Source: Branchiostoma floridae (taxonomy: Eukaryota > Chordata > Leptocardii > Amphioxiformes > Branchiostomatidae). Taken from it: 64,000 nt of DNA. Numbering within the stretch: position 1 is the first letter of the stretch; the number at the start of each line of letters is the position of its first letter. The notes under the pieces are model-generated. The model did no database searches. It was not told the origin of the DNA and saw only the letters and a program-made list of their open reading frames with translations. The position numbers and the translations under genes were made by a program. This document shows positions 22,601-64,000 of the stretch, in pieces. The stretch covers positions 23,785,811 through 23,849,810 of the forward strand of contig NC_049985.1 of NCBI RefSeq assembly GCF_000003815.2. The letters are read 5' to 3'.

Positions 22601-25600
22601 TTTTTCAACATTTTAAACTGTTTGCGTGTTTTATACCTGTGAACACCCCTATGTCACTTCGCTTTGGCCATGCCTCCTTTAGGTCATCAGCGATAGACTG
22701 CCCTCCTGCTTTTACAAGTGCCTTTGTGACTACAGTGAACCCTGAAAGTATTGGAGGACATGTGCGCAGCAGTTATTTTATTTCAAAACACTATTTGTCA
22801 TTAGGTATATACATGTCTTCCTAAATTTGCAAAAACAACATTTGATGTGAGTGAGCTTTGATGCTGAATCAGTTAAATTCATTCTTGACCTCACAACATG
22901 AATGAAGAGCTGGAAGAAATATTTAAACAATTTGGTGCTCAGTAGCATAAGGAGGGTACAAACAAACGGCTATGTTCCTTGAAAACGTCTACGTTCCTTT
23001 AAACATTTCTGTTGCTTGGAAAAGAAAACTATCATTGTTGCCTGTAAACAGGGCGTTGACCTTTTGGTTTTAAATATTGTGTTTTCTGCGAAAAAGATCT
23101 ACCTATGTCTTTTTTATTATTATTACTTTCCTTAAGACATCTAAAGTAATGATGTAAACGTCTTACCCATATTCTTAAGGACAGTACTGACAACAACGTC
23201 GGTTTTCTCCTGACAGATATCTCCCTGTTCGACCTGCATTCTTACCAGACCAAAGCTCATTTCTTGTTGACCTGGGATTGGTGTTGTTATATCGCCTGTA
23301 GTAATAAAGACATACGCGCAAAATATATTAATGTTCAATATCTGTAACTGTCTGAATCCTCACACTCTCTTGAAAGAAGTCGGACCCCAAGCTTATGCCG
23401 TGCCCGTTAGTATACTAGGACGTCATAGATTGATGCAATGGTTGGAATGGAACAAGTGCACATGCTTTGCACAACTATATTTCTCGCCACTACGTACACT
23501 ATGGAAAATAAAATAATTGACATTGTCTGAGTCAGAACTACCAAAGGAAAGAGCAAATGGAAAACGTTTTGTTGCTGTGATGCAGTTTTGTGTGGCTGAG
23601 ATAATTTTACACCCGAAGAACACGGAAAATTAAACTTTTAACATTGCACATTGACTTAACCTAATAAAATACTTGCCTATGGCGGCAGGTCCCGGTTCAC
23701 TAGGGATGCTACAGAACTCGGCCCTGTAGTCTGCTAACATCTGTCCGTCGTAGATGGTGAGTTTAACTGTTGTAAGGACGGGATTCGGGTTTGGTCGGAC
23801 AAACTGCTCAATACCAACTCGGATCGCATTGGCTGACTGGGATGGGGTCAACCCAAACCGACCTGGTACGATATTCAAATTGTATTAGTATTTAGATATT
23901 TAACTAAGGTTTACTACAGAAAGCTGTTTAATTTACGACATTATGATTATAATTTTACCGCATGCAACAAATGAACTTCATCAAATGTACTATATTTCTG
24001 TTTAACCCTATTCAGACAGGGTTTTTATTGTTAATGATTTGGTGGTTATATGTTAAGTCATTTAAGAATTACAGGCCGAAAAGCCCCCTCAACCCAACCA
24101 ACCACAGCAAAAAGTTACACAGAATAAGATTACCTGTTCCAATGGCAGGGAATGCAATCGACGTCAGTCCGGCTTGATTGCTCAGAACAAGGCACTGGCA
24201 GACTGCCTCACTAAGTTTATCCGCTTTGGGGAGCACCATGTGAACAACCTTCTTACACCGGAGAGTGCCGGCATCTGGGATAAGGACAGTTATGTATGGA
24301 AACCTTAGATAATGCCGTTATAAATTAGAATACCTTGAGCATCGATATATCTATATATTTAAATTTTTAAGAGAGAGATAGATAAATAGATATATTAGAT
24401 AGATATAGATAGATAGATAGATATGTATAGATATAGATAGATAGATAGATACTTCAGATAGATAGATAGATATAATTGTAATCATTACAATGTGTTGCAA
24501 CAAATCTAAAAAGATTTTCAAACACATACACATACATGTATGGATACCTAGAGATAGTTACACACCATACGAAAATCGTATGAGACACATAACAATAGTA
24601 AAAAAATAGACAGAAAATGGCATATTTAGGTATCCCTAAAGCGTTCCTGACCTGTGAGAAGAACACCATTGACTTTGTTGTCCCAGTTGGCCTGGCAATT
24701 GCCTCTGATGCTTTCGCCTCCGGCTTCCACAAGGGCCTCGCCAATCACTGTGAACACTGCAGTTATAATCATAAGATAAAGGCTTTCTTTTAGATGTCAG
24801 TATTTAAACACCGTTTTAGTTTTGATAACCGGAGGGATAACCAATGTGTACTGCGTTTACCTTGCATTCGGCAGGTCGTGAGTACGATCGCCGATCTTGT
24901 CATACCAAAGATTTAAAAAAAAGGAGGTAGCTGCTGCTTTCTCTGCTTGGCACTCAGCATTTTAGAAATAATATAAGCATTTTAGAAATAATATAAAAGT
25001 TGAACACACAGCACTACCAGTGAACTTGTCCTATGTTGTAGCAAAGACATTGTGTGGCCCATGTCCAGAGCCAGAGAACCAAAGATGGGCGCTACCCGAA
25101 ACACCATTTGATGCGGGAAGGACGTAACATCTATTTTGTCTTTATCATCCAAGACTCCAAACAAGTTGTAGTTGTAAAGGTACCGGTGATGATTTGCCTA
25201 CCTTTGCTGCTTATGACTGGATTAACAATCGCATCTGTGTCCGCAAACTCGAGCAGGCCTGTATGAATGTCTATGGTGATGGGTCCAACGCTCAGGAGAC
25301 CTGAGGGTTTGGAGATGATAGATTATGTTAGTGACAGCTATCATTACCAGCCATACTCTTTAAAAAATGCATGTTTTATATATAATGTTGCCATACCTAC
25401 GATCTATGTCAGATCGTTTTTATTAATATTTCTTTTCATCAGCTTGTGTTAAGTCAAAGAAGAAAGCGCTACCTCTGTCTTCTAGTCGAGTTCTGTATTT
25501 GTACTAACGACATTAGGAAAATAAAAAAGAAATGTTTTCCTTACCGACAGCCGGTGTTGGGGCTTGTGGAATGGGGCTTGGATGCTTCCGAATCTATAAA

Positions 25601-28600
25601 GGTAAATTAAGATCTACATAAGATTTATTCGTTGCTCGAATCTACAACTACCTAATGTACCAAATATTATCTTCTACAAGGCCGATGTTCCTTCCCTAAT
25701 CTTTCATGTTGCTCTGGTTGTAAATTGTGTTCCTTATTGTTACATCTGGTTAGACATGTAAACATGAAAGAGTAAAGCAACTATATAGGTGACATTTTTG
25801 TCGAAAACGCAGTATGTTTTCCCTGCTAGTCGTCATACTATAATTTTTCTAAATCAAAATCAGCTTTTTGCCCATTTTTGTGAAATAGACATAATATGGT
25901 AATTGGTAACAAAAATTGTAAAACATTATATGTTTAAGAACATGGACACGTATTACATGGTTGCTGTCTTTAAAACCGGATGCCCGAAAATGAGGAACGA
26001 GAAGAATAAAATGAGGCAAGCAAAACAATATGGCAAACATAAAAAGGAATTGGCGGCCAATAACAATTCCAACTGACCCGTTTCGTAGCTGGTGCCTGTG
26101 GATAGGTATTACTGCTCCACAGCAAGGTACATCTATGGTTCTCTTCTATCTTCTTCAACATGTTCTGAAAGGCATCTTTGCTAAACAGCTTTTGCAGACC
26201 TAAAACAGAAAAAAAAACAGAAAATAATTTTACTTACTTATCTTTTTCCTAGATATTTTTACTATTTGTGTATTTTGTCCCTAGGAGACACAATAAAACG
26301 TCAAAATATAGCTACCTCTTAAATTCTCTGTGTACCTGTAAATTGAACTTCTCTGGTGATATGAAGATCTTGCATGTATTTCATGTATGATGACATGTAT
26401 TTCTAAACCGTAACAGTGTAGTTTTGTAGTAGATCAATGTTACATCATTCCACTTACCGGGTTCTTTGTACTGTTCTTTGCTCTTGATGACGGTTGAAGC
26501 AAGATCCATGAGTGCTTTTGACACTTTGCTCATTCTATCACGAGGGCCTAAAATCTCGAAACCCGTTTTCACAGCTTTAATCTTGACTCCATTGGCACTT
26601 TCAATCTTCTGAATCTCATCCTCCCGACCTTTAAGTAGGACATTTAAGACCGCTTCGTCTACACTGACTACCGACGTGTCGACTTCTATCAAAAAGTCGT
26701 CAAGCTTTTTCTCCATGTCATCAACTACTTGAATAAGGCCCGCGATCTTAACTGTACCCGAAAACTTATCAGCTGACATAACAGCGCTGAAGTTAGCATC
26801 TTCGTTACTCTGGGCCATAAAACTATTCCAGCCACCAACTCCCAGGACTTCCCTTGAAACATCCCTACTCAATTCTGCGAATAGAGGTCGGACGCTTTTT
26901 GCTGCAATGCCTGCAGTGGCTTCGTCTACAGCCCAAATGGTCACTTCATCATCTCTTACGGCAACTACGACATCGTTTAACACTTTCGCCTGTGTCAGAG
27001 TTTCATCAATAGTCTTTTTTATCTCTTCTGAGACTCGAAGAACAGAGTGAACTTCAGGGGATACTTGCCACCTCCTTTCCTTGAACTCGTCAAGCTTGGC
27101 CTCAACCATGTCGTGTGCCTGCTGTACGTCTTGCTCTACTCCTGTGATTAAAACTTCATGGCTGTCATGAGTGATATCAAAATCAAGGTTAGGGAAAGAA
27201 GACCGAATTGTGGGTAGTTGCTTTTCTAGCAGGCGCAGTTTACGCGGATCAACATGTTTAAGTGTTTGTTCAATGCGTTTAATGGCCCGATGAATGGTTG
27301 TTTTGTCCGTAGGTGTCGAAGATGATGTTGTGAAGTCCACCCCGGCTATGGTACCAAGTGGCTCATAGTGCGCGAACACGGCGATAGGACCGAATCCGAA
27401 CTCATGGTTGAGTTTACTCACGACTGTCGGAACGACTGCAGGGACAAAAAAGAAAGAATAGTTGCAAAATTTGATCGCTTTTCATGAAACCATCCCTTAC
27501 CAGGTGTTTGATTTAATACACTGCCTTGGCAATTTCATTTTCTCTTTACCTAATGTCACCAAGATCGATCGAAAATTAATTGTGTTTCTTTTGTGTGTTG
27601 GCAAAGCTCAAATTTTACAACTATTCATTCTTCTGACAAAGATGGGATTCCATTGAAAGAAAGAAACAAATATACTGACACGTCAGTGAAGTGTGAATAT
27701 CCAAGTAGAATATTACACAATATAAAACGATATACCTATAAATATTTTTAGTTTGAAAATACATATTTCATTCTCAATCACTGTTGGACGATGTTATCTG
27801 AGATGCCTGGCGGTTTAGATGACAGCTAATATGTACGTAATCCCCCCATTATTTCATGTAATGCAGTTTTACATAATCACGCGAATTAGAAGATATTTTG
27901 CATAACTTGTATCAGTTCATGTGAAAAACACAAAACACATTGATTGAGAAAATATATTCTATAGACTATAGCTAGAAAACAATTGCATGTAGTTAAGACT
28001 TGAAAACAGTAATTATGGTTACTGCAACTTTGGAAAGCTAAGGGAAAATTTAAAATTCTTACCCTTGGGATCTTTGAATCTGATAATAGCCGTCCCTTGT
28101 TGTTTGCCAGGGATGATTTCCAGTATCTTCCCTCCCCCGCTTTTTTCGGTGTCTTCAAAGTATTCAAGTAGCTGATCTTGTGTGATTCTCTTTGTGATTC
28201 CTGACAGTTGCACACTCCTGGTGACGACCACGGGGAAGACGGAGAGAATTTGTCCCGACAGAGGTCTACTTTTAAGTTCATCAGCCATCAGACGTCTTGT
28301 TTTTCCATCTAAGGTAATGTTACGTGAAATATGTTAACCCTCAACAGTACACCTTCCCGTACTGATCAATCGGTCACCCTGGGGTCCCAAAACAGTTTTT
28401 ATAAATTTTCAAAATTATTAGTAAGCAACTACCTTAATTATTTTGTCGAATGATGTGTGAAAGTCTGTGTCCACATTAGTTACAAAAATCACACATTTTT
28501 ACCTTTTCTATTCTTTAAAAAAAATCCATTTTTTTTCAACATCTTTTGGGCTTTAAGTTTACACATTGATGCTAAATATTACAGAATACATAGTACTGGG

Positions 28601-34600: not shown

Positions 34601-37600
34601 GATGGAATAATTTTGCCAAACGTCAAACCATATCCACCCCCACAACACACCATACGCACCATCACAAAACAAATTATTTCAAGCAGGTTTGAGTTTTCAG
34701 ACTCTTGTTTTACTAGTAAGAGATGTCGGTATATTAGTGAAATAATGTGATAGCAACCCTTTATCCCATTATTTTACTAATAAAAGGTTAAAAGATTAGT
34801 CTTAATTTGTGTCTACTAGAGAAAAAATGGGATAGCACCCCTCTATCACATTATTTCAGTAGTATATAGACATTTATTGAAATAACCACTAAAAACTAAT
34901 TATCACAACTTTTCCAACTATCACGTTTTCTGTCCTAAAATACTATTCAGGGCTAAATAAATGTGTTAAATAATCAAGTCTCGCTAATGTCGGTTCTAGC
35001 AATGTATTTTTCACGTTTACTTGCTTTATTACTTCAAAGTTCTTGAATAAAAAAATTCTGCCATCTAGAATGTCTATTATAATTCAATAGGAATAAGTTG
35101 TGCTCATATAATGACATCATTGGCCAACATTTAAGATAGTGATCCTTATGAAAAGTAAAAAAAAATAACTAGCTTAAAATCCCATAGAATTTGTAGCTAC
35201 CTTTTTTCACTAAAAATTAACGTTCAACTGGGTGTTTTTAGTCCATTTCCATTTCCTTTTGCGATTATTTACTGAAAGAAATTCAAGAAAATTGAAAATT
35301 CAAGGTTGTAAATATATTAGATTTTATAAGAGTTTATCTTTATCCTATTTTGTATACGGATCCGATACTTTTGCAGCATATTCAAGGTTAATGACGTGTA
35401 CGTGTGCAAGTCGCGAAAGATTGCGCTTGCGTTGAAAAAAATCACGGTGGTTTCAAGTGAAGAGGTCACTGTGAAAAAAGCAAACATACAACAAACACAA
35501 ACACAAACATGTATGCATTTATACTATACATGTCAAATTTCAGCCTTCTAAAATAAGCAGAAGTGGGTTAGGAGATACCTATATGGTGGAGCAGGGACAC
35601 TACTGCTATGGTCTCATCTTCACCCCGGATGATACCGGTAACGGAGAGCCTGTTTTCGGCGCTGCCCAACCCTTCCAAGTAGTCCCTGAGAAATCCATTG
35701 TCACAGCTTGTAGGAATGCCCTGTGTTTGTAATATATAGTTTACTGTGATAAATATCAAGTCAACTTCAAATTGAATGAAGATTACCATATGGGATTCCT
35801 GCAATTATATACATACAAGACGATGATTGGGAACAAGGTAGTTTTGACCAGTCCTCTTGTCTTTTTTCAGGATAAATTATGATCTGATTTTCCGAATGCG
35901 TAAAGTAATCAACTGGTCAAAAATGGCTAGATTAACACGTGCACCATGCTTTATACCATTACATATTAAATATGCACCTGCAATTACTGAATTTAAACGT
36001 ACTAAGTAAAAAGAAAGACGTGGCTGGTTTATTGATGATATAACATTTATAAATCCATACCTTTATAAGCAAAGTCTTGCCATCGATAAGGCTCAGCCTC
36101 TCGGAGACAGTCACTTCCTTTTCTCCAATGAAGTGAGAAGGTTTCCGTACAACATCAACCGCAGCTAAAAGTAAAGTGATTTTAAAGAGTACAAGAAGTA
36201 AAGGTAAGACTACATGATCCATCACAAATCTTTGACCACTCAAACACCATTACCATAGCATGTCAAAATAACAAAATTTTATGGAATTATCATTGCAGGA
36301 CCCTCGAAAGCCGTTAGACGGCCCATTATCGTACTTGACGAATTTCTTCTGGATCTCTACCTTCCAAATACAATTAGGATCCATCCCAGCTTTTTGATTT
36401 ATGCTGAGCGCAAATCACATATGAACAAACAGGCACACAAATTGATTTTACCTAAAACCATGGAAATGCTGGCATTTGCTTATAAGAATTACCGCATATT
36501 TCACTCCTCCTCCATTCAGCATGCAGCAATGTTATTCCACAATCACCAATGTGCAAAAAATGGATTATTCCAAAATAACAAAAAGTCGCCCTGAATGAAG
36601 AAAATTGAGTTTTACCTGAGAATATTTTCTGCTGTCAGAAGAACCTTGGTTATTTCAGTAATCGTATAGCCAACACTCTTACCTCCGTACATGTATTTTA
36701 TTGACTTTAATATATGGTATGCATGTATTGTTGCAAATAAAGAAATTAAAAAAAAATATATAAATCAGTTTCACCTCGCCTGTGTTGAAACGTAATGTAG
36801 AACACTTGCTTGTGTTGAACCGTCGTGTAGAAAACACCATTGGAGTCCTTTATCATTCTTTCTATGGGTCCTCCGCCAGAAGAATGAGTGTTGGTAAAAT
36901 AAACCTTTAGACGCTCCTCATCAATACTTCCATCTGTGATAACTTCGATTGTCGGATTTTCTGCGGAAATCATAGAAACAGAAGAAGAAGAATGAGGATT
37001 GTAAATACATATCAGTTATGCATAAAGAGAAAATAGGATTACTTAGTGGGAACTTCATACTTACAACATTATCAAGCTTAGTGAAGGTGAACATCATTAG
37101 ACTTAAATAATGCAAATTAGTAATTAATAGGCAAACACTAAAATGGCATTCTCTTCTACGATAAGAATTTAATACTTTGGACTTGTTCCTCTTGGATGGA
37201 GATCCTGATCAACTGAGTTATTTACATAATAATTACGTAAATCAGGAACGTATTTACATAATCAAATGGGGAGAAATTTAAATACTTCACTCGAAAAGAT
37301 TTAAACCATTTGGCAAAGGTATGAGGTCGTTCAACTCTAGATGTTCTTGATACTTTTGAATGTCAAGAATATTCTGTATACTACTTACTATTACTGTATT
37401 CAATAACTAAAGGAATCCTTAATTCTTCTTTGATTTTAAATCAACGAAATATCCATATATTCTGTAACATTTACAATCATGTACATCATATTCAGTCACC
37501 AATATATGTTACATAAGTGACATTGTTGACATATAACTTAAGATGTACTTGATATTTTTAGACTTTTAGTAAAAAAAATCATTCTAAGCAGGAATGAATC

Positions 37601-42000: not shown

Positions 42001-45000
42001 AGGTATGAGGTCACCGAAATCTTGTTCAAGTATATTTTATGCTCGGTATGTTCTAAAAAGCTACCTCAAGTAGGATATATTGTGGATATAAAGTTAAAGA
42101 ACCCACAGAGACATCAGACTTTGACATTCACATCGCATCATGCTGCACAAGTTCACTTCGAACCTTCGAACTGGCTTAGTTATATTTACCCTCCATGTTC
42201 GCAAAGGTGACTACGTAGCAGTCATCATCCTCGGATATTGACGTGATTTTGCCACCATGTGACCTCCTGTTGTTGGAAAGGTACGTCTTTAAGGCGTTCA
42301 TACTGACCGCATCGTCCCGAACTACCTCGATCGATGGTGTTTCTGCAAACAACGACAACGACAGTGACGTTTGTACGGGTTAAACGTTGACGTCGTTAAA
42401 GTTAAAAACATCCAACAAAAGACGATTACATTGTTTGTAAATAACTGTGAGAGGAGTATAATTGTAAACGTTCGTAAGCAAAAGATTGAAGTCAAACATG
42501 TTGACAAAGTGAAAATATCCGTCAATGTTTTTCATTAGTACTCATAGACGAATATACCTTATTGACTCAAATTCTAACGTCTACTTCACATAAATCAACA
42601 AGGTTAACCTTAAAGACAAACCTTCTTGAATAGAACATTAGTTAAACTTGATTTATAGGTCTGGAACTTTTGGGGTCAGATGTCTAGTCTAAGTAAGGTA
42701 AGTAAGTAACACATTGGAAGCTACCAATTTTATTTTTATTTTTAAAGGAACGAAATCTTACCAAGAAGATATTCCAAACATGGCAGCTCTCCATGCGTAG
42801 GTTCGTCCTGTGGTCCAACTGTTGGTTCAGATAAAGGAAGATAGTTACATGGCTGTTGTGACTATAAATCAAAAGCATTGTTCCATTCAAACATTAACCT
42901 CTATTGACACTTAGAAGGAGTGTGTTTTAAAGCCCGAGCATTCTTTAATGTCTAACATGTACAGCATAACAGTATATCAATAATACATTTCAAAAGTCCA
43001 TCCCCAGTAATCAAAATGTTTGTTTTTTTACAATATTTGCAAGAATTATGAATTATTTTGGATAAAATGATTCCTAAACAACAATTATAAGTTCTAACTT
43101 CTTAAAAATCTAATATTGAAATTTAAATCTATTTGAATTACTTTGACTGATTTGGACAGTTTTTATAAGTGACCGTACAACATCTCTTTGCTTTTAAAAA
43201 TCTTGCATTCATGTCAGAGAGTTTTCGTACATAGATTGTGACGAGTAACATAAGAAAACTCGCCAGATATGGTTCCTCTAGCGTAAGGAATACTGGTCTA
43301 ATGCGATGTGAAAGAAGGCCCCACCCCAGCTCTAAAGCAGATTAATTTCCTTTCTAATTTATTTTTAACTATCCTTGTATCCACATAAATACACTTATCC
43401 AAATAAATACTTGAAATTAATTGTAGTATTATGAGTCGTGTATGGCTTTTAGACAGCTGCACAAGAAATCGTTCTAAGTTAGTGCAATCATGATAGTAAG
43501 ACATCACTATCTGATCTATTTTAGTCCTAAATCCCCATTACCCCCCCCCCCCCCATGACACGGGATATGTATGGCCACAAAAGATGACGCTTTTTTTTAA
43601 TGGTAGGTGTTCCTTCCACCGGCCACATGAAAAGCACCAATCAGAACTACTGCGTATAGCAGATAATGCACCTTAAATATAACAGTTGCTGAAATTCAAC
43701 TTTCGTTTGTTATGGTGACCCCTAGTACACCCTCTTATCTTCAATGTTTTATCTTCATCATTTGGTCTGTAAAACTAGAAAGCACATGCTATATGGAAAT
43801 ACAAAACTTCTGTTAGTAGCTTCATCAGATTTATCAGGGTAGCCATCACTATTTCAGTAATTTTCAGCCATACATTATTGGATTTTTGAGGGTCTCTGAA
43901 GGAGGTCCCAGAACGCCATAACGAAAAAAAAAGCTGGAGGGTTGTAATCATATGACTGTTCATAGTTCTACATATTATAGGGAATACTAGTACTAGTCTG
44001 TGTAACACAAACTTGGTAACATCAACTCGATGGGCTGGGCTAGATGCCTCTCCCATGGTCTATGCAGGCTGTGGTACTTGTGTGAAGGTCCAATGGGAGC
44101 AAAGGCATGCTGAAGTGTTTGTGTTGGGATAACAACATGATGTTGTGGGGATTTTTTTAGAAACTCGAAGCGCAGACGCTGCTTCCTGGAACTATGGTTT
44201 TGCCTAGCCTGGTGGTAAGATTTCATGTGACCAGCAACGAAAGCTTGGCATAAAGTACATTTCTCTGATCTATGTGGGCAGAAAACTGCCTAAAACCAGT
44301 TCGGCGATGTCCGGGACAGCCTTCGGCAATGCTCCGTAGCCTTTCAGGCTATGGTCGGAAAGTGGTCTGAAGCGCTTCGGGAGGCTACGGAGCGGCCCCA
44401 AACATCGCCGAACTTCGTGATCAAAGATGGCGGACGGGACCAGTTAGGCATAGCGATCCGTTGAGGTAGCAGAACACAGTTTTCGGCCTATGTTGATTTC
44501 TATAGTTAAATGTGACAGACATCGAGGTTGATAAAATCATAGTAGGGTGCAGTTTTCAATCACGACAAACTATACTAATATGTTGAAGTTGAGGGTACAA
44601 CCTACCAAAATAATTGAAAAAGCAGAAAAAGTTGTCGTTTTGAAATTTTGTAAAGACCTCTTTTAAATGGGGTCATGCGGGGTCATAAGGGACTGCAGCC
44701 GACTCACCGAGGCAGGCAGCTGTAAAGGCCACGCGCATTTATACACCAAATGGACAAACATCAAAACCTTACACATACCAACTGAAAGTCGACTCCTTAT
44801 ACTACAATATAGCAAGGCTAATACCCGCTGCCTTTCACGTTACAGTGTTTACAGGCGCTTCTAGATTCTAGATCGCACTACTTTTTTTACCGACGTCATA
44901 GGGGTCGCGGAAAAATACTGTGGGCTGCGACCTTGACATGGCAATGACCCTAATTGACGGCTGCGCAGAAGGTCCCCGGTGAGTCTTGATTTTTAAAAGT

Positions 45001-60000: not shown

Positions 60001-61425
60001 AACGCCCAGTGAGAGAAGTTGCAAAATCATTACATCACATAACACGTTTAAAAACTGTGATCTTCTGATGGAAATGTGCCCACAAATTATCACCGGGCTT
60101 GTGTTAGAATCTATCCGGCTCCGCATATCAGTGGTATAATAGAAGAAATTGGACAAATAGAGTCAGTAGTCTGCTAGGGTAGTCCAGCCGGCCGAAGGGG
60201 TATTAATCCTCACCACGACTTTTCATCGGCTCAGTAATATCTAAATATACTAACGCCAGCAAACGTCTTTTTGTATGCTACGTAGACTTTTGGAAAACGT
60301 TTAGCGTAGCGAACAGTGTGGTTACTGTGTTACAAGCTAAGGGGAAAAGGGGTTGGCGGCAAATTTGATAATTTTTTCAAATATATTCACGAATAACTGT
60401 CCGACAAGGGAAAAATATTCTTAGCCCAAACCTTTTTTTTTTAATTTCTAGATAGTGACCTAGCTATAGACTGTATCGACTGCGGTCCACCTTCCTTACA
60501 CAGGAGTGTATACACTGTACACCCACCTTTGAGTAGAAAACATCTAAATCACAAACTCATATACAGTTATCTAGGCTTGATTTGTTCCCAGAAAGTTACT
60601 CCTTATCTAAAAAGCAATTGTCTTTAAGGCACGCAAAGCCGCCTTCAGTAAATGTCTAAAACCCCTTATCCGCAATTCACTGACCACAAAGGCCCTACTT
60701 AAAGCCTATTATACATGCATCAAGTCTACAATGTTACATTATATACCTATGAGATATGGGCAAGGTTTACTCAACAAACAGATGTCATTTTAGTAAAAGC
60801 ATCTTAGGTGTGTACAGGAATTCATGTAGCCTAGCATGCAGGGCAGAGCAGAGCTTGGAGTGTTTTCAACAGACAGACATATCAATCCCTGTAATGATAG
60901 ACTACTGAAATAACTAGACAGCTCCATGTACCCCTTCTAACTAGATGCACTAATCTGTCAACAATAAAATATGGGAAATAGTACCAGAAAAAAACAGTTG
61001 TAATATAGTAAAGAAATGATAGATAATACAGGCTATATTATATTATATTCTTTTGATTGAACATCGACTACCCTGCATAAACCAATAGGAATATAAAAAA
61101 AAATATACGTATTACTAAAGAGAAGACTTAGAGATATGTATATTCAAACTGAAATTTCTCCAACACACTCATATTTTTTCATCACCAACATTTCTTTCAT
61201 CACTCAGATGTCAGATCAATAATTTATGTTTCTTCCCTTGCTTTTGACCAAAAATGATAGAGTCAGCATTTGGGGGGGGGGGTCTGGCAGGGTAGGTTGT
61301 GTGTTACCAGAAACGCATATTTTTCTTAGGCCTAAAAACGTTATATACTTGGAGAAAATGTCACTACCTGTGACTGTTGGTGGGTCGTCCTCGCTCTGTT
61401 GTATCTTGCTAGCTTCATTCCCCAT
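9786..61425 (-). CDS. PARP14-like mono-ADP-ribosyltransferase, 27 exons
   Basis: Multi-domain macro-PARP of the PARP14 family; these modify proteins with single ADP-ribose units from NAD+ and read ADP-ribose through macrodomains, and in vertebrates act in interferon and antiviral responses (family knowledge). Exons in coding order: 61368-61425, 42762-42818, 42190-42342, 36775-36960, 36061-36164, 35579-35720, 28063-28308, 26458-27435, 26078-26199, 25545-25593, 25202-25300, 24652-24756, 24134-24274, 23677-23862, 23167-23295, 22637-22741, 20687-20827, 20135-20311, 19497-19886, 17844-17936, 17176-17322, 16538-16768, 15459-15695, 13810-13908, 13358-13610, 10899-10993, 9786-10072. All phases agree and the sum is 5010 nt (1669 residues; human PARP14 is about 1800). 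Exons 1 and 2 are the least certain: they are short, lack homology and are joined by phase across 18.5 kb. Confidence 0.87.
11131..12084. mobile_element. TTAA-flanked MITE with TGACGTCA cluster, 954 bp
   Basis: Ends TTAACCCTATTCAGACCGGG and its complement; the inverted match goes on into CCCTCCACTT-type and GGGCCACCAAATTT sequence. TTAA next to CCC fits piggyBac-type non-autonomous elements (inference). Five TGACGTCA sites and several TGACGTAA sites lie inside. In the intron between exons 25 and 26. Confidence 0.78.
12206..13261. mobile_element. GC-rich TIR element, CCCCCTTTCCACTAG ends
   Basis: Ends CCCCCTTTCCACTAGGACGG and CAAGTGGAAAGGGGG; both subterminal parts are full of GAGAGCGC units. 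Long ORFs on both strands at 12158-12500 come from these repeats. In the intron between exons 25 and 26. Confidence 0.75.
13810..15695 (-). CDS. PARP14-like gene: KH-like module, exons 23-24
   Basis: Exon 23 (15459-15695, about residues 1347-1425) reads VEQVVEVTFFACKQLDVDNA and later KKFVLVTIT; exon 24 (13810-13908) reads HIDVAGLTDDVVGVLREIEF. The beta strand, GL..DV, then amphipathic helix matches the KH-like module just before the WWE domain in vertebrate PARP14. Here the next exon goes straight into the catalytic domain and the 199-bp intron between them holds no further exon, so WWE appears absent. KH assignment is by pattern, not by search. Confidence 0.75.
14119..15310. mobile_element. 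Relative of the TGACGTCA-rich element, 5' and 3' parts
   Basis: Starts TTAACCCTCAAACACCCAAG; 14941-15300 is close to 11150-11515 (GGCCCTCCACTTC to ATGACGTCAT). Five TGACGTCA sites. Probably a nested or rearranged copy in the intron between exons 23 and 24. Short TTAACCC fragments also occur near 24003 and 28332. Confidence 0.65.
16538..19886 (-). CDS. PARP14-like gene: repeat linker and macrodomain 3, exons 19-22
   Basis: Exon 19 (19497-19886, 390 nt) encodes about 85 residues of Ser/Ala/Pro-rich linker with an ASRRASPYLSS repeat, then the macrodomain start SIDVQIQQGDLTMEKTDAVV. Exon 20 (17844-17936) gives VGHALEKAGG, exon 21 (17176-17322) KKIIHMVCPDA and SVAFPAIGTG, and exon 22 (16538-16768) GVSAADAARETVQAIEDF ending in an Ala/Pro/Val tail. 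The FPAIGTG loop is the usual phosphate-binding loop of macrodomains. For exon 19 I chose the acceptor at 19887-19888 because it follows a pyrimidine tract and keeps phase 1; the earlier AG puts the reading frame out. Confidence 0.88.
18125..19195 (+). mobile_element. Interspersed element with ACCTCCATGAAA ends, copy 1
   Basis: Begins AGAGTTCGGCGACCTCATAC then ACCTCCATGAAA, ends TTCATGGAGGTAA. Interior holds several ATGCAAAT/ATTTGCAT octamers and repeated ACAAAAACGCCCCTGC-type units, ending in an ACACAGACAC run. Lies in the intron between exons 19 and 20. Copies: 38700-39088 (short) and 41045-42019 (reversed). Confidence 0.75.
19630..19800 (-). repeat. Coding 33-bp minisatellite in exon 19
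   Basis: Four near-identical units encode ASRRASPYLSS, one pair separated by a 12-bp insertion. Diverged ASPLSS-type units extend to 19886. In frame throughout, between macrodomains 2 and 3. Confidence 0.88.
20135..23295 (-). CDS. PARP14-like gene: macrodomain 2, exons 15-18
   Basis: Exon 15 (23167-23295) reads VRMQVEQGDICQEKTDVVVS, exon 16 (22637-22741) TVVTKALVKAGGQSIADDL, exon 17 (20687-20827) KKIAHMILPSA and SISFPAIGTG, exon 18 (20135-20311) QVESARGIYSAVQEFGLKEN. Four exons, all phase 1 at both ends, nearly the same lengths as macrodomains 1 and 3. After the first strands it has VVVSTVLKN where ADP-ribose-binding macrodomains usually have a V-N-x-x-N motif, so binding may be altered or lost (inference). 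The 1.8-kb intron 20828-22636 holds nothing I recognise. Confidence 0.88.
23677..25300 (-). CDS. PARP14-like gene: macrodomain 1, exons 11-14
   Basis: Exon 11 (25202-25300) reads ITIDIHTGLLEFADTDAIVN, exon 12 (24652-24756) VIGEALVEAGGESIRGNC, exon 13 (24134-24274) KKVVHMVLPKA and SIAFPAIGTG, exon 14 (23677-23862) SQSANAIRVGIEQFVRPN. Every exon begins and ends in phase 1. Exon 14 ends at an unusual GC donor (AG|GCAAGT), the only reading that keeps the phase pattern. The intron at 24275-24651 contains a GATA microsatellite. Confidence 0.9.
24369..24475. repeat. GATA microsatellite
   Basis: Runs of AGAT/GATA with small interruptions, inside the intron between exons 12 and 13. Confidence 0.9.
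25545..27435 (-). CDS. PARP14-like gene: KH-like block and proline linker, exons 8-10
   Basis: Exon 8 (26458-27435, 978 nt, about residues 316-642) is the longest exon. It starts with the final strand of the preceding RRM (IAVFAHYEPLGT) and then has repeated strand-helix units such as VLITGVEQDVQQAHDMVEAK and VVVAVRDDEVTIWAVDEATA, which fit the tandem KH-like folds proposed for PARP14 proteins. Exon 9 (26078-26199) reads LQKLFSKDAFQNMLKKIEEN and uses donor CGG|GTCAGT in phase 0. Exon 10 (25545-25593) is a Pro-rich linker, KHPSPIPQAPTPAV. Fold assignment is by pattern only. Confidence 0.82.
28063..28308 (-). CDS. PARP14-like gene: RRM-like repeat 4, exon 7
   Basis: Reads RSVQLSGITKRITQDQLLEY then FEDTEKSGGGKILEIIPG and GTAIIRFKDPK, the strand-helix-strand-strand order of PARP14-type RRMs with the SGGG turn. 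The exon is phase 1 at both ends (246 nt). An in-frame Met lies near its start, but the acceptor at 28309-28310 and the open frame before it argue for an internal exon. Confidence 0.88.
29330..30115. repeat. Array of 71-72 bp hairpin-forming units, left arm
   Basis: About ten units. Each carries TAAAATAATGTGATA, a short GGGGTTGC spacer and the complementary TATCACATTATTTCA, so each can fold into a 15-17 bp stem; a GAGACCATCTATATAT spacer separates units. Confidence 0.9.
30181..30298. repeat. GAAT microsatellite
   Basis: Interrupted GAAT/AATGAATA tetranucleotide runs, purest at 30239-30297. Confidence 0.85.
30400..31440. repeat. Direct duplication inside the palindrome, left side
   Basis: 30418-30740 and 31063-31395 are near-identical direct copies (CCAAGCAGATGTAAGCGCCC to GACGATATTGTTTCTTCT). 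The reverse complement of the block occurs at 32764-33060. ORFs across this block are repeats of one another and not genes. Confidence 0.88.
31529..32365. other. Assembly gap (N), 837 bp
   Basis: Run of N at the centre of the palindrome; apparent ORFs across it are artefacts. Confidence 0.99.
32366..32547. repeat. About 76-bp tandem repeat at the gap edge
   Basis: Two full units and part of a third, with TCTGTTACAG, CTCGTCCTGTCG and AACAGTCCTG in each. The array probably continues into the gap. Confidence 0.75.
32764..33180. repeat. Inverted copy of the 30.4/31.1-kb block
   Basis: Reverse complement of the left block, followed by a mirrored GAAT/ATTC microsatellite (33183-33225) and the right hairpin array, so the palindrome is in proper nested order around the gap. 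Confidence 0.88.
33276..33724. repeat. Array of hairpin-forming units, right arm
   Basis: About six units of the same family as 29330-30115 in opposite orientation, more diverged at the right end (TACTGAGATA variants). Confidence 0.88.
34068..34445 (-). repeat. Partial copy of the ACCTCCATGAAA element
   Basis: Starts ACCTCCATGAAAAATGGAGG, then a GTGTGTCT run and units like those of copies 1 and 3 (GCTGGGGCATTCTGGTCAAA). Confidence 0.6.
35579..42818 (-). CDS. PARP14-like gene: RRM-like repeats 1-3, exons 2-6
   Basis: Exon 2 (42762-42818) encodes GPQDEPTHGELPCLEYLL, acidic and unplaced. Exon 3 (42190-42342) is RRM 1: PSIEVVRDDAVSMNALKTYL, ending YVVTFANMEG. Exon 4 (36775-36960) is RRM 2: PTIEVITDGSIDEERLKVYF with an SSGGG turn. 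Exon 5 (36061-36164) closes RRM 2 and opens RRM 3 with TLLIK; exon 6 (35579-35720) continues GIPTSCDNGFLRDYLEGLG. Phases are 1/1 for exons 2-4, 1/0 for exon 5, 0/1 for exon 6. Such RRMs are typical of PARP10/PARP14 N termini. The 5.2-kb intron between exons 3 and 4 holds an N gap and inverted repeats. Confidence 0.78.
38700..39088 (+). mobile_element. Interspersed element with ACCTCCATGAAA ends, short copy 2
   Basis: Same ends as copy 1 but only 0.39 kb, so internally deleted. Contains a CA microsatellite at about 39015-39058. Confidence 0.75.
39265..41047. mobile_element. Two interleaved inverted-repeat pairs around an N gap
   Basis: Pair A: 39265-39555 with 40242-40531. Pair B: 39640-39880 with 40802-41047. 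Both outer ends share CATTGGCATAATACCGGTC (A has a T for C), so they look like ends of one TIR family. The order is A, B, gap, A', B', not the nested order of a simple foldback. Lies in the intron between exons 3 and 4. Confidence 0.8.
39964..40235. other. Assembly gap (N), 272 bp
   Basis: Run of N inside the interleaved inverted repeats; apparent ORFs across it are artefacts. Confidence 0.99.
41045..42019 (-). mobile_element. Interspersed element with ACCTCCATGAAA ends, copy 3
   Basis: Opposite orientation to copy 1: starts ACCTCCATGAAATGTCATGG and ends GAGGTATGAGGTCACCGAA. Abuts the B' inverted repeat at 41047. Octamer-like motifs recur. Confidence 0.72.
44298..44417. mobile_element. Hairpin MITE-like element
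   Basis: Outer arms AGTTCGGCGATGT and ACATCGCCGAACT, inner arms GCTCCGTAGCCT and AGGCTACGGAGC, nested. In intron 1. Confidence 0.7.
45792..47948 (+). CDS. Penelope-like reverse transcriptase / GIY-YIG endonuclease
   Basis: 718-residue polyprotein for copying and inserting the element. RT motif A is SFDVTALFTSVP (F297), motif B YGMAMGSPLSPVLANLFMEE, motif C RYVDDTGVV (Y398, D400, D401). The C-terminal endonuclease shows CGVIYKIACEQCGEVYVGE (G597-Y600 and Y611-G613), with Cys residues around GIY as usual in Penelope proteins, then ERTAEH and a later QHLLKSRH. No stop or frameshift. The frame stays open upstream of the chosen Met to the stop at 45654-45656, and the 45 extra codons (LLRERIHLTHHKVEQL included) look coding, so the true N terminus may lie upstream, by a non-AUG start or splicing. 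Confidence 0.93.
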   Translation: MFERTSAHVQRSQEATFRRSKTVQINKLEKLKTVKLGDSQPNQDQGNIDLSGTQLKKWVRVLSKYKPTPCEMRVLGKGLNFAIAPSDIPVKEIVAATEVACHKLDQEEASLLRNEVVGILQNAKPPKPNLTKDESKAIKSLKENKDIVILPADKGKAVVVMNKTEYVEQCEKLLGDKNTYKVIGPTNPTKTLKGRLQRKLREIKKAGHLDPQVYDKTYPTSDATPRFYATPKIHKDPLKMRPIVSGINSITYHLARHLADLLSPLVGQSTEHIKNSKDLVTKIREVTLDDGEVLTSFDVTALFTSVPGEEVVQMAMKRAEGDPTWKNRTLLTPKEFGDLLLLVVSTTYFQYNNVIYEQTYGMAMGSPLSPVLANLFMEEFERKALDTAPYRPKFWGRYVDDTGVVNQQKHEQELFEHINNQHDSIKFTIEREKDRRLPMLDVMMIRNTDKSITTDVFRKETHTDHYLQWSSNHPVQQKLGVVRTLMHRANTLIEDRTLREAEKEKVRVALRHCGYPEWALKEGDNINKKRVSKDGHSRDKEQSPASYVVLPYLKGVTERLKRAYAKHNVSLFSKPGYTLRNALVRPKDPLGPSEKCGVIYKIACEQCGEVYVGETERSLGERTAEHQKSIDNKDCKSALSQHLLKSRHIVTTKPISDNIMIIDQEPRNAHRKVKEAVHIQLEGAKLNRNDGWELPKSYLPLLRKEAGVRGRRSTQVST
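47944..47974 (+). repeat. 12-bp stem hairpin across the Penelope stop codon
   Basis: CCTAGTTCTCGC at 47944-47955 pairs with its exact complement at 47963-47974 around a 7-nt loop; the stop codon is 47946-47948. It may be a transcript 3' structure; function unknown. Confidence 0.7.
48664..48770. repeat. 29-bp tandem repeat, about four units
   Basis: Units GGGTCAACATCTGAGGTATA plus CTAGTCAAT; the outer units are diverged. It lies between the Penelope element and the large TIR element. The rest of 48072-49784 shows nothing I recognise apart from a short CA run near 49075. Confidence 0.85.
49790..50026 (+). repeat. Left terminal inverted repeat
   Basis: Pairs with 57909-58146 with only a few mismatches and a 1-nt length difference. 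Confidence 0.9.
50564..50607. repeat. TA microsatellite
   Basis: Interrupted ATATAT run within the large TIR element. Confidence 0.8.
50737..50823. mobile_element. 87-bp hairpin MITE
   Basis: Arms 50737-50767 and 50793-50823 (CAGTGGGGTTCAAGCGCTGC start) are complementary with one mismatch around a 25-nt loop. Confidence 0.75.
52874..56070 (-). pseudogene. Broken multi-exon gene inside the TIR element
   Basis: Three candidate exons join in frame: 55949-56070 (HMDPKACLRRHDDYRCTTG), 54791-54873 (TCLEINLNAEMSMIGIHTVF) and 53073 downward (VQLLLGVSEDLQQAAQERDG). The last reaches TAG at 52982-52984, yet the same frame continues with a Lys/Gly-rich stretch and an acidic end, DSEDDIPLTELMS, to a second TAG at 52874-52876. 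This looks like an old C terminus cut by a premature stop. The first exon uses donor GT|GTGTAA by phase. No family recognised; it may be a decayed transposase or a passenger gene. A further open stretch at 56866-57144 may be an earlier exon. Confidence 0.38.
57909..58146 (-). repeat. Right terminal inverted repeat
   Basis: Reverse complement of 49790-50026; homology stops where the sequence leaves AAGGTC near the inner end. Confidence 0.9.
58152..59030. repeat. About 125-bp minisatellite, roughly seven diverged units
   Basis: Units contain TGTAGTCAGTGTAG, GCTACAA and TTGTAGCTGTAG, and a recurring ATTCAAGTTYCAGCTGTAG block near 58259, 58384, 58522, 58648, 58776 and 58898 (spacing 122-138 bp). 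It begins directly at the TIR element's right flank. The element's left flank also has an ATGTAGCTAG stretch, so the element may have landed at the edge of the array. Confidence 0.85.
61368..61425 (-). CDS. Probable first exon of the PARP14-like gene, MGNEASK start
   Basis: Reads MGNEASKIQQSEDDPPTVT, then a good donor (CACAG|GTAGTG) in phase 1, which fits exon 2. The start fits the N-myristoylation consensus (Gly2, Ser6, Lys7), a lipid anchor to membranes. It faces the plus-strand gene at 61989 across a short intergenic region. The link to exon 2 crosses 18.5 kb of transposon-rich intron and rests on phase and position only; it could instead start another minus-strand transcript. Confidence 0.55.
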
Positions 61426-61988
61426 TTTGTGGACTCGCAGGCGGACAATTGGCGCCTGACTCTAACTTAAGCGTCTCCTTAGGCACTGTCCTCGTTTCTG
61501 GGAGAATACTTTTTCCCTGTGCGTCTCTCTTGCCTTTGCGAGCCAGCTGTCGAGGACGAACGTTATGTTTGTCCTGTGTGATGCAATGTAATAGATAACA
61601 TACCCCATATAAAAATCATCAGCCACCTTTTAACAAAGCCAACAAATCAGTCACATATAAACTATCGACTAAAAGAATAAAAGGCTTTGAAGTGTCAATT
61701 AAATGACAGCCGACCCATAAGATACACATCTTGCACCACCTTTGTGACACCTGCACGTACCTGACATGTCGGCTATCTTACTTGCAAACACTTTGCTCTA
61801 GACGACCGCCAATTGAACTCTTTCACCGATCAATAAGGTCCAGAGGACAGCTTTCTACATACCCCATATTTAGCACTTTGTAGAGCCCGCTTATATAACG
61901 CTGCAGGCGTATCGTGTCTTGCATTCGTGTCTTTTTTATGTTTATGTGTGTTGCACTGAAAAGGCTTTTTCGTATGTAATGATTTGCC
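61426..61988. promoter_or_regulatory. Divergent promoter region between the two head-to-head genes
   Basis: Only 563 bp separate the two predicted start codons. For the plus-strand gene there is a TATATAA at 61892-61898, which would put the cap site near 61920 and give a 5' UTR of roughly 70 nt, and a CCAAT at 61807-61811. For the minus-strand gene a CCAAT box in its orientation lies at about 61446-61450, very close to its ATG, and I see no TATA box. No clear ISRE or GAS element was found by eye. Confidence 0.6.
61892..61898 (+). promoter_or_regulatory. TATA box of the plus-strand gene
   Basis: TATATAA, 91 bp before the ATG at 61989, at a spacing that allows a short 5' UTR. Confidence 0.5.
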
Positions 61989-64000
61989 ATGGGCTCCGGT
62001 AATTCCAAAGAAGGGAGGAAAGACGATACGGGCGAGGGGGGTTTTACGCAGACGGAGTTTTATAATAATGTCGATAGAAACTACCAAAACTATGGCCGCG
62101 AAGATAATCCCGCAGAAGCTGCTGGTGAGGAACAGGCGACGAGAAATGGCGAAATGACCAGGGCAAGGTCGACAGTAGAGGAGCCACAAAAGACTGGCAA
62201 AGGACAAAACAAATCAAAATCTGTTCTTGTAAGGAACTTTCATGGCAGCATTTCTACATTGGAGAGGCATTTAAAAAGACATTATGGATCAGACTTCAAG
62301 TGCACAAAACCAGTCGATTGTGACAGCGTGGTTGTGAAATTCAAGTCGCAGCAAGGTAAGGCATTTTACTTAATTTACGCAGTTGCAGAGCGTTGGTGTT
62401 CTCTAATATGTACGTACATGATGAACTTCAGGCGAGACGAAAAACAGAGATGCATAATGTTAGTTGGTCATCACCCGTTGACATGTATGAAATAAAAACA
62501 ATACAAATGCTTTAGTTTGGATATAAGTTAAGCTAAGTTTAATTTCATCCATTCAATAAGTAGTTAAATCTGGTATAACCATCATATGGATAGTAAATGT
62601 ATTAGTATTCATCAAATGCTGTTTTTTATCCAATGTAGTGGCTGAAAAATTCCTTAAAGACCCTCCTTGCGTAGAAAGAAAGGCCCTAAATGTTAGTCTA
62701 CCAGATAGTGCTCCCGCCATTGATGAAGGCAAGATCACCAAAGACCGAGACAGTGAACAGGTATGGCTTTTTTTCATATATATGTCTACAAAATGTATGT
62801 ACGCCGTAAGAAAACAAAGCAAGAAGCTACAGAGAGTACCTATTCTTTTACCGCTAGATATGGCAAAGACAATCTTTATAAAGATTATATCCCCTCAATT
62901 CAACTCTTTTATCATTTTATGCTCTCTTAAAAGCTAAGACTATTCTAGCCATGTTTTACAGGCATTGTGTATATCCCCTAGGGCCATGTTGATATGGATG
63001 ACATCTGCGCAGGCATCAATTGTTATCCGTTTTAAAAAAAGCGACAAAAAGTTTTTGGCATACTGTAAAAGGAGCAAATACATGCCGCGTGTAAAAAACG
63101 TGTACTAATGTCGTGAAATGCCAAACTAAAGTGAAGGAACTAATACTCTGTTGCTCTGTATATTAACCTTTTGTCTTTAGTCATTGTACAAACTTTCTGA
63201 CCTCTTATATTTAATTGTAAAGCCACTTTGTCGGGGGTGAAAATCTTTTAAAAGCACGCTCGCCTTAGGTTTGGGTTTCAAAAAGTTCCAGTCATTCTTG
63301 TAATCAAAAATAATCAACATGACCTTGATAGTGAATATATTATTTCTTAATAGTCTGGTTTGTGCAAATAGGACATGGCAGCTGCACCTGAAGTAAAAAA
63401 GGGGTCCCGACTTTATGATTCCTTGCGGGCAACCAGAAAGAACTCACAGCAAACTGTTCTAATTTGGCAAAAAAGGGCGACTCAAGAGATGTCTAAGCCT
63501 GAAGACGAAAGCCATGAGGATGGTTGGCAGATGAAAGGCGTCAGTGCCACTATGGCGACAGTAACCACGTTAACATGTATGCCAAGCAACACGGAAGACG
63601 ACAAAGAAGTCAGCAACGCACATACCCCAAAAGTGTCAAAAAAGACAGCCCATGCTCCTCTCGGAGCAAATGGTAAGGAAAAAGTAGCAAGCGAAACGGA
63701 CCTCAAATTAGATGCTGTAAAAGTAGAGTTTCTCCAAAAGGTACACAAAAAGTCATTTGATTACATCTGTACCAGTAACAACGTAGTTATTGTGGTAGAA
63801 GCAGAGCCGTCATCATGTAAGGTCATATTTCGGGAAAACGCTCCAGGAAAGGGTGACGTAGGAGAGGCCAGTCAGCAGTTCTTGGAACTGTACCAGCGCA
63901 TCTCGGACGAACTATCTAAAAACAACATCCTCAACGTACTGGAAGAGCTCCCAGAATGCACAATCCAGTGTCTAAAAGACGCTCTCTGCCATGCCGAATC
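61989..64000 (+). CDS. 5' part of an RRM/KH-like gene, DTX3L-like or PARP14-like
   Basis: Three exons: 61989-62355, 62639-62760, 63372 to beyond the window; phases 1 and 0 agree and 372 codons are visible. The start codon has a good context (GCCATGG). Residues 1-7 are MGSGNSK, an N-myristoylation consensus; a polar linker follows. An RRM spans about residues 78-145: SVLVRNFHGSISTLERHLKR, VVVKFKSQQ, then VAEKFLKDP across the exon junction. Exon 3 has a polar stretch, then VKVEFLQKVHKKSFDYICTS and SCKVIFRENAP, a KH-like pattern that recalls the middle of vertebrate DTX3L and also PARP14. The deciding C terminus (RING/DTC or macro/ART) is outside the window. Confidence 0.82.

Follow-up and report, generated by a model that had tools for sequence, protein, structure and literature searches.

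Layout of the divergent gene pair

In the lancelet Branchiostoma floridae, a PARP14-like gene on the minus strand and a DTX3L-like gene on the plus strand lie head to head and are transcribed divergently from neighboring starts in the window (the whole stretch of DNA analyzed, 64,000 nucleotides). The ATG of the PARP14-like gene is located at 61425-61423 and that of the DTX3L-like gene at 61989-61991, and both positions bear out an earlier sequence-only reading, in which the divergent start codons were placed 563 bp apart (intergenic region, 61426..61988). The first exon of the PARP14-like gene (61368..61425, minus strand) encodes MGNEASKIQQSEDDPPTVT plus a G and ends at 61368 in a phase-1 donor. 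Its membership in this gene was open because it lies 19 kb from the next recognized exon (RRM-like, 42373-42185). A first exon of similar sequence on chromosome C19 (MGTGASK...PPTFTIA) ends in the identical phase-1 donor and is in phase with the same RRM exon, and a third first exon of this type (MGSAASNASK...) is found on C13. Sequence comparison with these paralogous loci thus supports the membership.

Such divergent pairs are found on three chromosomes, C7 (the window), C19, and C13. In the C13 pair, the ART domain of the minus-strand partner was not seen, and no ART match on C13 was among the matches listed. A looser head-to-head pair at 24.66 Mb of C7 is perhaps a further recurrence. In the three pairs, every one of the six proteins begins with MGxxxS, a start that looks N-myristoylation-like. 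The three intergenic regions also have in common a 17-bp element, GCTTTGAAGTGTCAATT (61684..61700, plus strand), 288 bp before the DTX3L-like ATG. Just before it stands a TATAAA (61656-61661), where the alignment of all three regions is conserved. The element is exact in two of the three regions and deviates by one base on C13; exact copies are found at 2 sites in 513 Mb, both in intergenic regions of the pairs. It is the longest common word (17), and a word above 14 appeared in none of 500 shuffles. One-mismatch sites (7, against 9 for the backward control) are not above control, and their places alone, not their number, speak for the element. Recurrence on three chromosomes together with this common element indicates that the divergent layout is more than chance. 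The window's intergenic region is 72% identical to that of C13 (563 bp; 393/546 aligned) and 49% identical to that of C19 (262/537 aligned). The 72% identity between C7 and C13 extends over the whole region, so promoter conservation may partly be a leftover of duplication. No ISRE, GAS, or NF-kB consensus was found in the two intergenic regions scanned, which leaves the suggested interferon-type control unsupported here.

Domains of the two proteins

Downstream of its first exon, the PARP14-like gene carries four RRM-type exons, all with approximate borders. The first (42185..42373, the match extent) and second (36773..36985) have Pfam matches only below cut-off (RRM_PARP14_1, 0.047, for the first), the third (35577..35780) was assigned by position and is collinear with C19, and the fourth (28043..28312) is above cut-off (RRM_PARP14_3, 4.7e-08). 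A KH-repeat exon follows (about 26453..27451; KH_PARP14_5, 0.0017, below cut-off), and then three macrodomains of several exons each: A (23729..25322; Macro 5.3e-12, exons joined by hand), B (20136..23309; 1.6e-09), and C (16530..19635; 9.5e-16). In the macrodomain tree, all three are placed with MD2/MD3 by a 96/98 branch. Further exons (13372..15678; about 15678-15451, 13942-13805, and 13608-13372), collinear with C19, lead to the ART (PARP catalytic) exons (9789..11007; about 11007-10897 and 10079-9789; Pfam PARP 3.8e-20). The ART residues, read by eye, are H (LYHGT), Y (KGMYFA), and I (NPGIFVVF), of PARP14/15 type, and the best solved matches are PARP15 and PARP14, so that the PARP14-like identity proposed earlier holds. 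Human PARP14 likewise has RRM-like and KH repeats, three macrodomains, and a PARP14/15-type ART, but none of the lancelet macrodomains is MD1-type, and the lancelet protein starts with MGxxxS.

The DTX3L-like gene was modeled from sequence, using GT/AG borders and joined frames, on the contig extended past 64000. Its product of 820 residues has the order RRM-like, KH-like, macrodomain, RING, and Deltex C-terminal domain (DTC). Exon 1 (61989..62355) holds the MGSGNSK start, a linker, and the beginning of the RRM-like domain, and has paralogous first exons on C19, on C13, and at 3.829 Mb of C19. Exon 2 (62639..62760), with a counterpart on C13, ends this domain, and exon 3 (63372..64000, on to 64554 past the window) encodes the KH-like region and then the macrodomain. 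In extended coordinates, the macrodomain end and the RING share one exon (64732-65204), and the DTC and stop codon occupy the last two (65628-65836 and 66129-66237). Both domains that the sequence-only reading had proposed to look for beyond 64000 are present (RING_2 1.2e-06; DTC 2.6e-57), along with Macro at 2.8e-32. This RING-DTC end, with a PARP14/15-type ART on the partner, makes the gene DTX3L-like and means that ART-E3 pairing exists outside vertebrates. The best solved match of the RING-DTC part is DTX3L (167.7 bits), a margin of 5 bits over DTX2 (162.7), followed by DTX1 (147.1). In a DTC tree that took 11 of the 20 DTC loci of the genome, a 100/100 branch separates 10 of the 11 lancelet rows, together with human DTX3L, from the C11 row, which falls with DTX1/DTX2. 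The equivalents of DTX2 His582 and Glu608, the reference DTC His-Glu pair (PMC7615817), are the H and E of IHHKT and EELAAKG by hand count along the alignment. In the RING of the C7 and C19 copies, Asn replaces the His of the C3HC4 pattern, which could affect how this domain works.

The KH-like segment had been said to recall DTX3L. This resemblance is real but weak: Pfam KH_DTX3L stays below cut-off (E 0.011 for the N-terminal part, 0.048 for the whole protein), and DTX3L D3 is the best among the human segments tested (E 5.6e-4). Pfam RRM gave no match on the E3 protein, and profile comparison of its RRM-like region gave E 0.0012 to PARP14 and 0.0019 to DTX3L (best of 20 shuffles, 0.035). Both assignments are weak. 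Human DTX3L has the same RRM-like then KH-like N-terminal region, RING-DTC C-terminus, and DTC His-Glu pair. It differs in lacking a macrodomain before the RING, the RING Asn, and the MGxxxS start, and fewer KH-like units are recognized in the lancelet protein than the five described for DTX3L (PMC11080071).

The macrodomain fused to the E3

The macrodomain on the plus-strand gene was unforeseen in the sequence-only reading. Its best solved single-domain match is human PARP9 MD1 (124.9 bits), followed by PARP14 MD1 (100.9) and the next at 82. The 96/98 branch groups it with MD1s; human PARP9 MD1 is not its sister. Grouped with the human MD1s (95/94) are four further lancelet macrodomains, and two of these lie upstream of ART matches. 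The nine DTX macrodomains included are split over more than one group. Loop 1 (NAAN...GG) and loop 2 (IY) match the hydrolase rule given in PMC10221186.

Could the fusion be solely a product of misassembly or a wrong gene model? The model was made from sequence, and assembly gaps lie nearby. However, the macrodomain end and RING stand in one uninterrupted exon, the macrodomain-RING-DTC order also occurs at C19 3.85, C7 24.37, 24.64, and 24.66, and C4 16.08, and a same-strand macrodomain lies within 6 kb on the 5' side at 12 of the 20 DTC loci. The fusion is thus no artifact, and an error of this kind is very improbable. Even less credible is that the plus-strand gene is just one more PARP14-like paralogue belonging to the lancelet cluster already known. 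Such clusters have been published (PMC4245714, PMC13224862), and its N-terminal domains resemble both families, but the extended sequence refutes this identity, since the reading frame closes with RING-DTC and reaches its stop codon at 66237 without an ART domain. A more serious alternative, although an unlikely one, is that the macrodomain only reads ADP-ribose and brings the E3 to marked targets without hydrolysis. Mammalian PARP14 macrodomain 1 has repeatedly lost activity (PMC10221186), and loop 1 deviates in some lancelet DTX copies, such as IVSSVN at C7 24.66. Against this, the loop-1 Asn and Gly are kept in the window, C19, and C13 copies, and the loop-2 Ile-Tyr in the window and C19 copies (on C13, loop 2 falls in a gap).

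A probable writer-E3 module and its possible ancestry

We consider it probable (about 0.7) that the locus represents a recurring divergent two-gene module of ADP-ribose/ubiquitin signaling in lancelet, with a writer gene and an eraser/reader-E3 gene that are co-expressed. The minus-strand product would be a PARP14-like mono-ADP-ribosyltransferase that carries three reader-type macrodomains along with RRM-like and KH repeats, and the plus-strand product a DTX3L-like E3 with an MD1-class macrodomain fused before RING-DTC. Both would be produced together from the common promoter, and their MGxxxS termini may carry them to membranes via myristoylation. A physical complex and an immune role can be envisaged. 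The ART would put mono-ADP-ribose on targets, the RING-DTC, with its conserved His-Glu pair, would ubiquitylate ADP-ribose, and the fused macrodomain would bind and probably hydrolyze ADP-ribose or Ub-ADP-ribose. A single polypeptide could then both build and edit the mark.

In vertebrates, the writer, macrodomain, and E3 jobs are divided over PARP14, PARP9 (MD1), and DTX3L, and the partnership of an ADP-ribose writer with a DTX3L-type gene is known from antiviral immunity. The human PARP9-DTX3L pair is reported to have a bidirectional promoter in common (PMC13224862). Both systems place an ART-family gene head to head with a DTX3L-type E3 gene. In lancelet, however, a PARP14-like protein with H-Y-I residues takes the place of the inactive PARP9 as ART partner, the MD1-class macrodomain is on the E3, and the pair occurs three times, with ISRE and GAS consensus absent from the two regions scanned. 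An MD1-type macrodomain is likewise joined with RING-DTC in the PARP9:DTX3L complex, but over two polypeptides in man and in one in lancelet; making and removal of Ub-ADPr within one complex has been discussed (PMC10810221).

It is conceivable, though we lean against it, that the head-to-head layout originated on the lancelet line or separately from vertebrates, with later copying to C7, C13, and C19, in which case the pair would be silent on the ancestry of the PARP9-DTX3L locus. The three clear pairs all come from one genome and are paralogous to one another as copies of a single unit, ART matches are missing near several DTC loci, and the partner is PARP14-like, PARP9 being reported only from jawed vertebrates (PMC10221186). 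On the other hand, the two gene families and their divergent orientation are the same as in vertebrates, and a DTC locus lies within 100 kb of 5 of the 8 macrodomain-containing ART loci of this genome. As for the earlier suggestion that the pairing is old in chordates, its presence outside vertebrates stands, and its age rests on one genome and published vertebrate data. The lancelet pair sets an ADP-ribose-tagging enzyme beside a ubiquitin ligase that itself carries a module of the tag-removing sort. The ART-E3 gene partnership may thus be older than vertebrates, and may be built in different ways.

Architecture of the divergent gene pair

The two divergent start codons that the sequence-only reading had placed 563 bp apart are confirmed at 61425 (minus strand) and 61989 (plus strand). 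When the contig was extended past the window, by 48 kb on the downstream and 20 kb on the upstream side, the plus-strand gene was found to run from 61989 to 66237 in six exons with GT/AG borders, encoding 820 residues. The same reading had proposed a search for RING and Deltex C-terminal (DTC) domains beyond position 64000, and Pfam detects both in the extended gene: a DTC domain at residues 676-806 (2.6e-57) and, ahead of it, a RING_2 domain at residues 629-668 (1.2e-06, over the cut-off). A macrodomain lies at residues 452-569 (Macro, 2.8e-32), and the architecture is thus unlike that of human DTX3L, which is free of macrodomains. The exon at 64732-65204 holds both the end of the macrodomain and the RING. 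Among solved structures, the RING-DTC part matches DTX3L best (167.7 bits), by a small margin over DTX2 (162.7), followed by DTX1 (147.1). In a DTC tree of 14 sequences, which covers 11 of the 20 lancelet loci and leaves out DTX3 and DTX4, 10 lancelet rows fall with DTX3L and are split from DTX1, DTX2 and the chromosome C11 sequence by a 100/100 branch, while the inner branching of the DTX3L group is weak. By the part of PMC7615817 consulted, a DTC histidine and glutamate act in ADP-ribose ubiquitylation in DTX2; counted by hand along the RING-DTC alignment, both of these are kept in the plus-strand protein. Not all eight zinc ligands of the C3HC4 type are kept, since by eye the histidine is replaced by asparagine on C7 (CCGNEFC), the chromosome whose positions 23785811-23849810 make up the window, and in the paralogous copy on C19 (CCSNVFC). 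Because of this replacement and the macrodomain, the protein is named DTX3L-like and not DTX3L. An extra cysteine precedes the asparagine in the RING of the C7 and C19 head-to-head copies, and the histidine is kept in the DTX copies at 24.37 and 24.66 Mb on C7 and at 16.08 Mb on C4.

Human DTX3L has five KH-like domains and an N-terminal RRM, called D1. In the lancelet protein, KH_DTX3L stays below the Pfam cut-off (0.048 for the whole protein, 0.011 for the N-terminal part alone), and no Pfam RRM is found. In profile comparisons with human segments, the KH-like region is best matched by D3 of DTX3L (E 5.6e-4, against 0.012 for the next segment and 0.036 for the best of 10 shuffles). The RRM-like part gives a weaker match and fits PARP14 (0.0012, from residue 200) and DTX3L 1-100 (0.0019) about equally, the best of 20 shuffles reaching 0.035.

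The first exon of the minus-strand gene (61368-61425) reads MGNEASKIQQSEDDPPTVT, and its membership in that gene was put to test because the next recognised exon is 19 kb away. The paralogous locus on C19 begins with a first exon, MGTGASKKTKKTDKDDNEPPTFTIA, that has the same phase-1 donor, and the counterpart RRM exon follows 3.6 kb later, joined in phase; the joint reads ETPSIEV in the window and QTPSIEV on C19. On C13, a first exon, MGSAASNASKSEDGPTIVT, is likewise found with an RRM exon at the corresponding position. The idea of a stray exon is rejected on account of the type and phase of the C19 exon and the type of the C13 exon. As for the plus-strand gene, the possibility that it is a plain PARP14 paralogue is ruled out by its RING-DTC part, and a misassembly that joined a macrodomain to RING-DTC by the recurrence of this arrangement at several loci.

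The exons of the minus-strand gene are collinear with those on C19 and encode four RRM-like domains, KH repeats, three macrodomains, further exons and the ART domain (Pfam PARP, 3.8e-20). Against solved structures, the ART domain matches PARP15 (163.4 bits), PARP14 (155.5) and PARP10 (135.1) in this order, and by eye its triad is H-Y-I, of the PARP14/15 type H-Y-(I/L). From these three features, the gene is expected to encode an active mono-ADP-ribosyltransferase, with macrodomains of the reader type only. Its intron 1 contains a long open reading frame (45657-47945, plus strand) with a reverse transcriptase (RVT_1, 7.3e-11), which we take from its appearance to be Penelope-like. A 71-bp tandem repeat also forms two arrays within an intron of this gene, at 29526-30115 and 33282-33722.

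The fused macrodomain and its recurrence in the genome

The top solved-structure match of the fused macrodomain comes from a PARP14 chain that contains two of them (153.6 bits). Among single domains, PARP9 MD1 is the best (124.9 bits), followed by PARP14 MD1 (100.9) and the next at 82. A tree built from 25 macrodomains has a 96/98 branch between the MD1-type and the MD2/MD3-type domains. The MD1 side holds nine of the 12 DTX macrodomains found, the human MD1s and five other lancelet macrodomains, two of which lie upstream of ART matches. The other side comprises human MD2/MD3 and the six macrodomains that the PARP14-like genes of C7 and C19 have between them, so that all three of the minus-strand gene, the first one included, are of MD2/MD3 type. 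The macrodomains from the three pairs cluster together (100/99) in a group that adjoins the human MD1 group (95/94) at a weak 81/53, and the nine DTX macrodomains have no single common group. A direct descent of PARP9 MD1 from the fused macrodomain finds no support in this tree. The residues that PMC10221186 names for hydrolysis are Asn and Gly near loop 1, together with a hydrophobic-aromatic pattern in loop 2; both the DTX copy of the window and that of C19 keep them. Single-exon MD1-type macrodomains at C4 13.538 and C4 30.565 are followed downstream, on their own strand, by ART matches; these are probably PARP14-like genes that have retained MD1, unlike those of the C7 and C19 pairs.

A search of the whole genome (513 Mb, 431 contigs) gave at least 39 DTC matches in at least 20 loci, and for at least 12 of the 20 a macrodomain match on their own strand lies within 6 kb on the 5′ side, among the matches listed. 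The roughly 20 loci lie on C4, C7, C11, C13 and C19, with tight clusters at 24.58-24.66 Mb on C7 and 16.03-16.11 Mb on C4; in man, five Deltex genes are counted in the part of PMC12687431 consulted. At least 21 ART loci were grouped by hand from 30 matches. Among the matches listed, macrodomains occur within 20 kb on the 5′ side of 8 of these 21, a count in which two neighbouring C4 loci may share some matches, and five of the eight have a DTC locus within 100 kb.

Head-to-head pairs have start codons separated by 563 bp on C7, 637 bp on C19 and 563 bp on C13. No ART match on C13 is among the matches listed, so the ART part of that pair is unseen; on its minus strand, two macrodomain matches and RRM exons are present. 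A looser arrangement that may be a fourth case lies at 24.66 Mb on C7, where a minus-strand DTX gene is accompanied by a plus-strand exon, PARP14-RRM-like by eye, about 1.1 kb from the RRM-like exon of the DTX gene, and by an ART match at 24.69 Mb; start codons were not found there. Each of the six proteins encoded by the three pairs starts with MGxxxS (DTX: MGSGNS, MGSAAS, MGSSPS; ART: MGNEAS, MGTGAS, MGSAAS), a putative N-myristoylation signal. Near the window, open reading frames at sites including about 73.8, 79.4 and 89.8 kb in window coordinates encode an LRR protein, two RING/B-box (TRIM-like) proteins and one C-type lectin.

The shared intergenic region

The C7 and C19 intergenic regions have in common a 17-bp word, central and in the same orientation (in the window at 61684..61700, plus strand, 288 bp before the DTX3L-like start codon); none of 500 shuffles went above 14. 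The exact element has two sites in the genome, against none for its backward control, and with one mismatch allowed it has seven, which is not above the control (nine). By position, three of the seven belong to the pairs, and a further one is found some 360 bp ahead of the first exon of a fourth DTX gene at 3.828 Mb on C19 (807-1457, minus strand, of the stretch read). This gene has a first exon starting MGSAVSK, thus also of the MGxxxS form, and a second exon; there is no DTC match at this place among the matches listed, and no ART partner in the 6 kb read. The other three (C2:14560386, C16:8668956 and C136:12064, one mismatch each) are away from the listed DTC loci and may be due to chance, their number fitting the control. 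From the places of its sites, the element therefore marks DTX promoters and, where an ART gene faces the DTX gene, is common to both. Close to it is a TATAAA, in a part of the alignment of the three regions that is conserved, so that this may be a core promoter of the DTX gene. Scanned for consensus sequences, the intergenic regions on C7 and C19 show no ISRE, GAS or NF-kB site; one IRF-core-like site is present on C19, where 0.37 are expected.

Relation to the PARP9/DTX3L/PARP14 system

The lancelet pairs resemble the human bidirectional PARP9-DTX3L locus in their divergent starts and short intergenic region. However, PARP9 is an inactive ART with MD1 and MD2, whereas the lancelet partner has three MD2/3-type macrodomains and the residues H-Y-I. 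In the consulted parts of PMC4245714 and PMC10221186, PARP9, whose partner is DTX3L, is described only from vertebrates, and lancelet PARP14-like clusters are already in print, as the parts consulted of PMC4245714 and PMC13224862 state. Among the papers listed in a search of the published literature, there is no description of a lancelet DTX3L-like gene, of a macrodomain-RING-DTC fusion or of the lancelet pair. Judged by sequence, the PARP9/DTX3L/PARP14 system exists here in a new form: the E3 is of the DTX3L type but contains an MD1-type macrodomain, its gene stands head to head with that of a PARP14-type writer, and there are at least three such pairs.

This arrangement suggests that the gene pairing is older than PARP9. 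The fusion would be one chain doing the work of the PARP9:DTX3L complex, linking the likely removal of ADP-ribose to its ubiquitylation. In the part of PMC10810221 consulted, a 'paradoxical coupling' is remarked on for the human complex, and the fusion protein makes it testable with a single purified protein. A wider scenario, to which we give about one chance in four, is that the module of the ancestral chordate paired a PARP14-type writer, divergently, with a Deltex E3 into which an MD1 eraser/reader was built. The E3 of vertebrates would then have lost its macrodomain, with PARP9 MD1 used in trans instead, while lancelets would have kept the fusion, multiplied the E3 until it occupied about 20 loci, and directed both writer and E3 to membranes through N-myristoylation, giving them an ADP-ribosyl-ubiquitin immune system specific to their lineage. 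The DTC loci, about 20 in number and 12 of them with a macrodomain, together with the five of eight macrodomain-bearing ART loci that lie near one, suggest a large and little-studied cross-talk between ADP-ribose and ubiquitin in the lancelet, which is perhaps part of its immunity.
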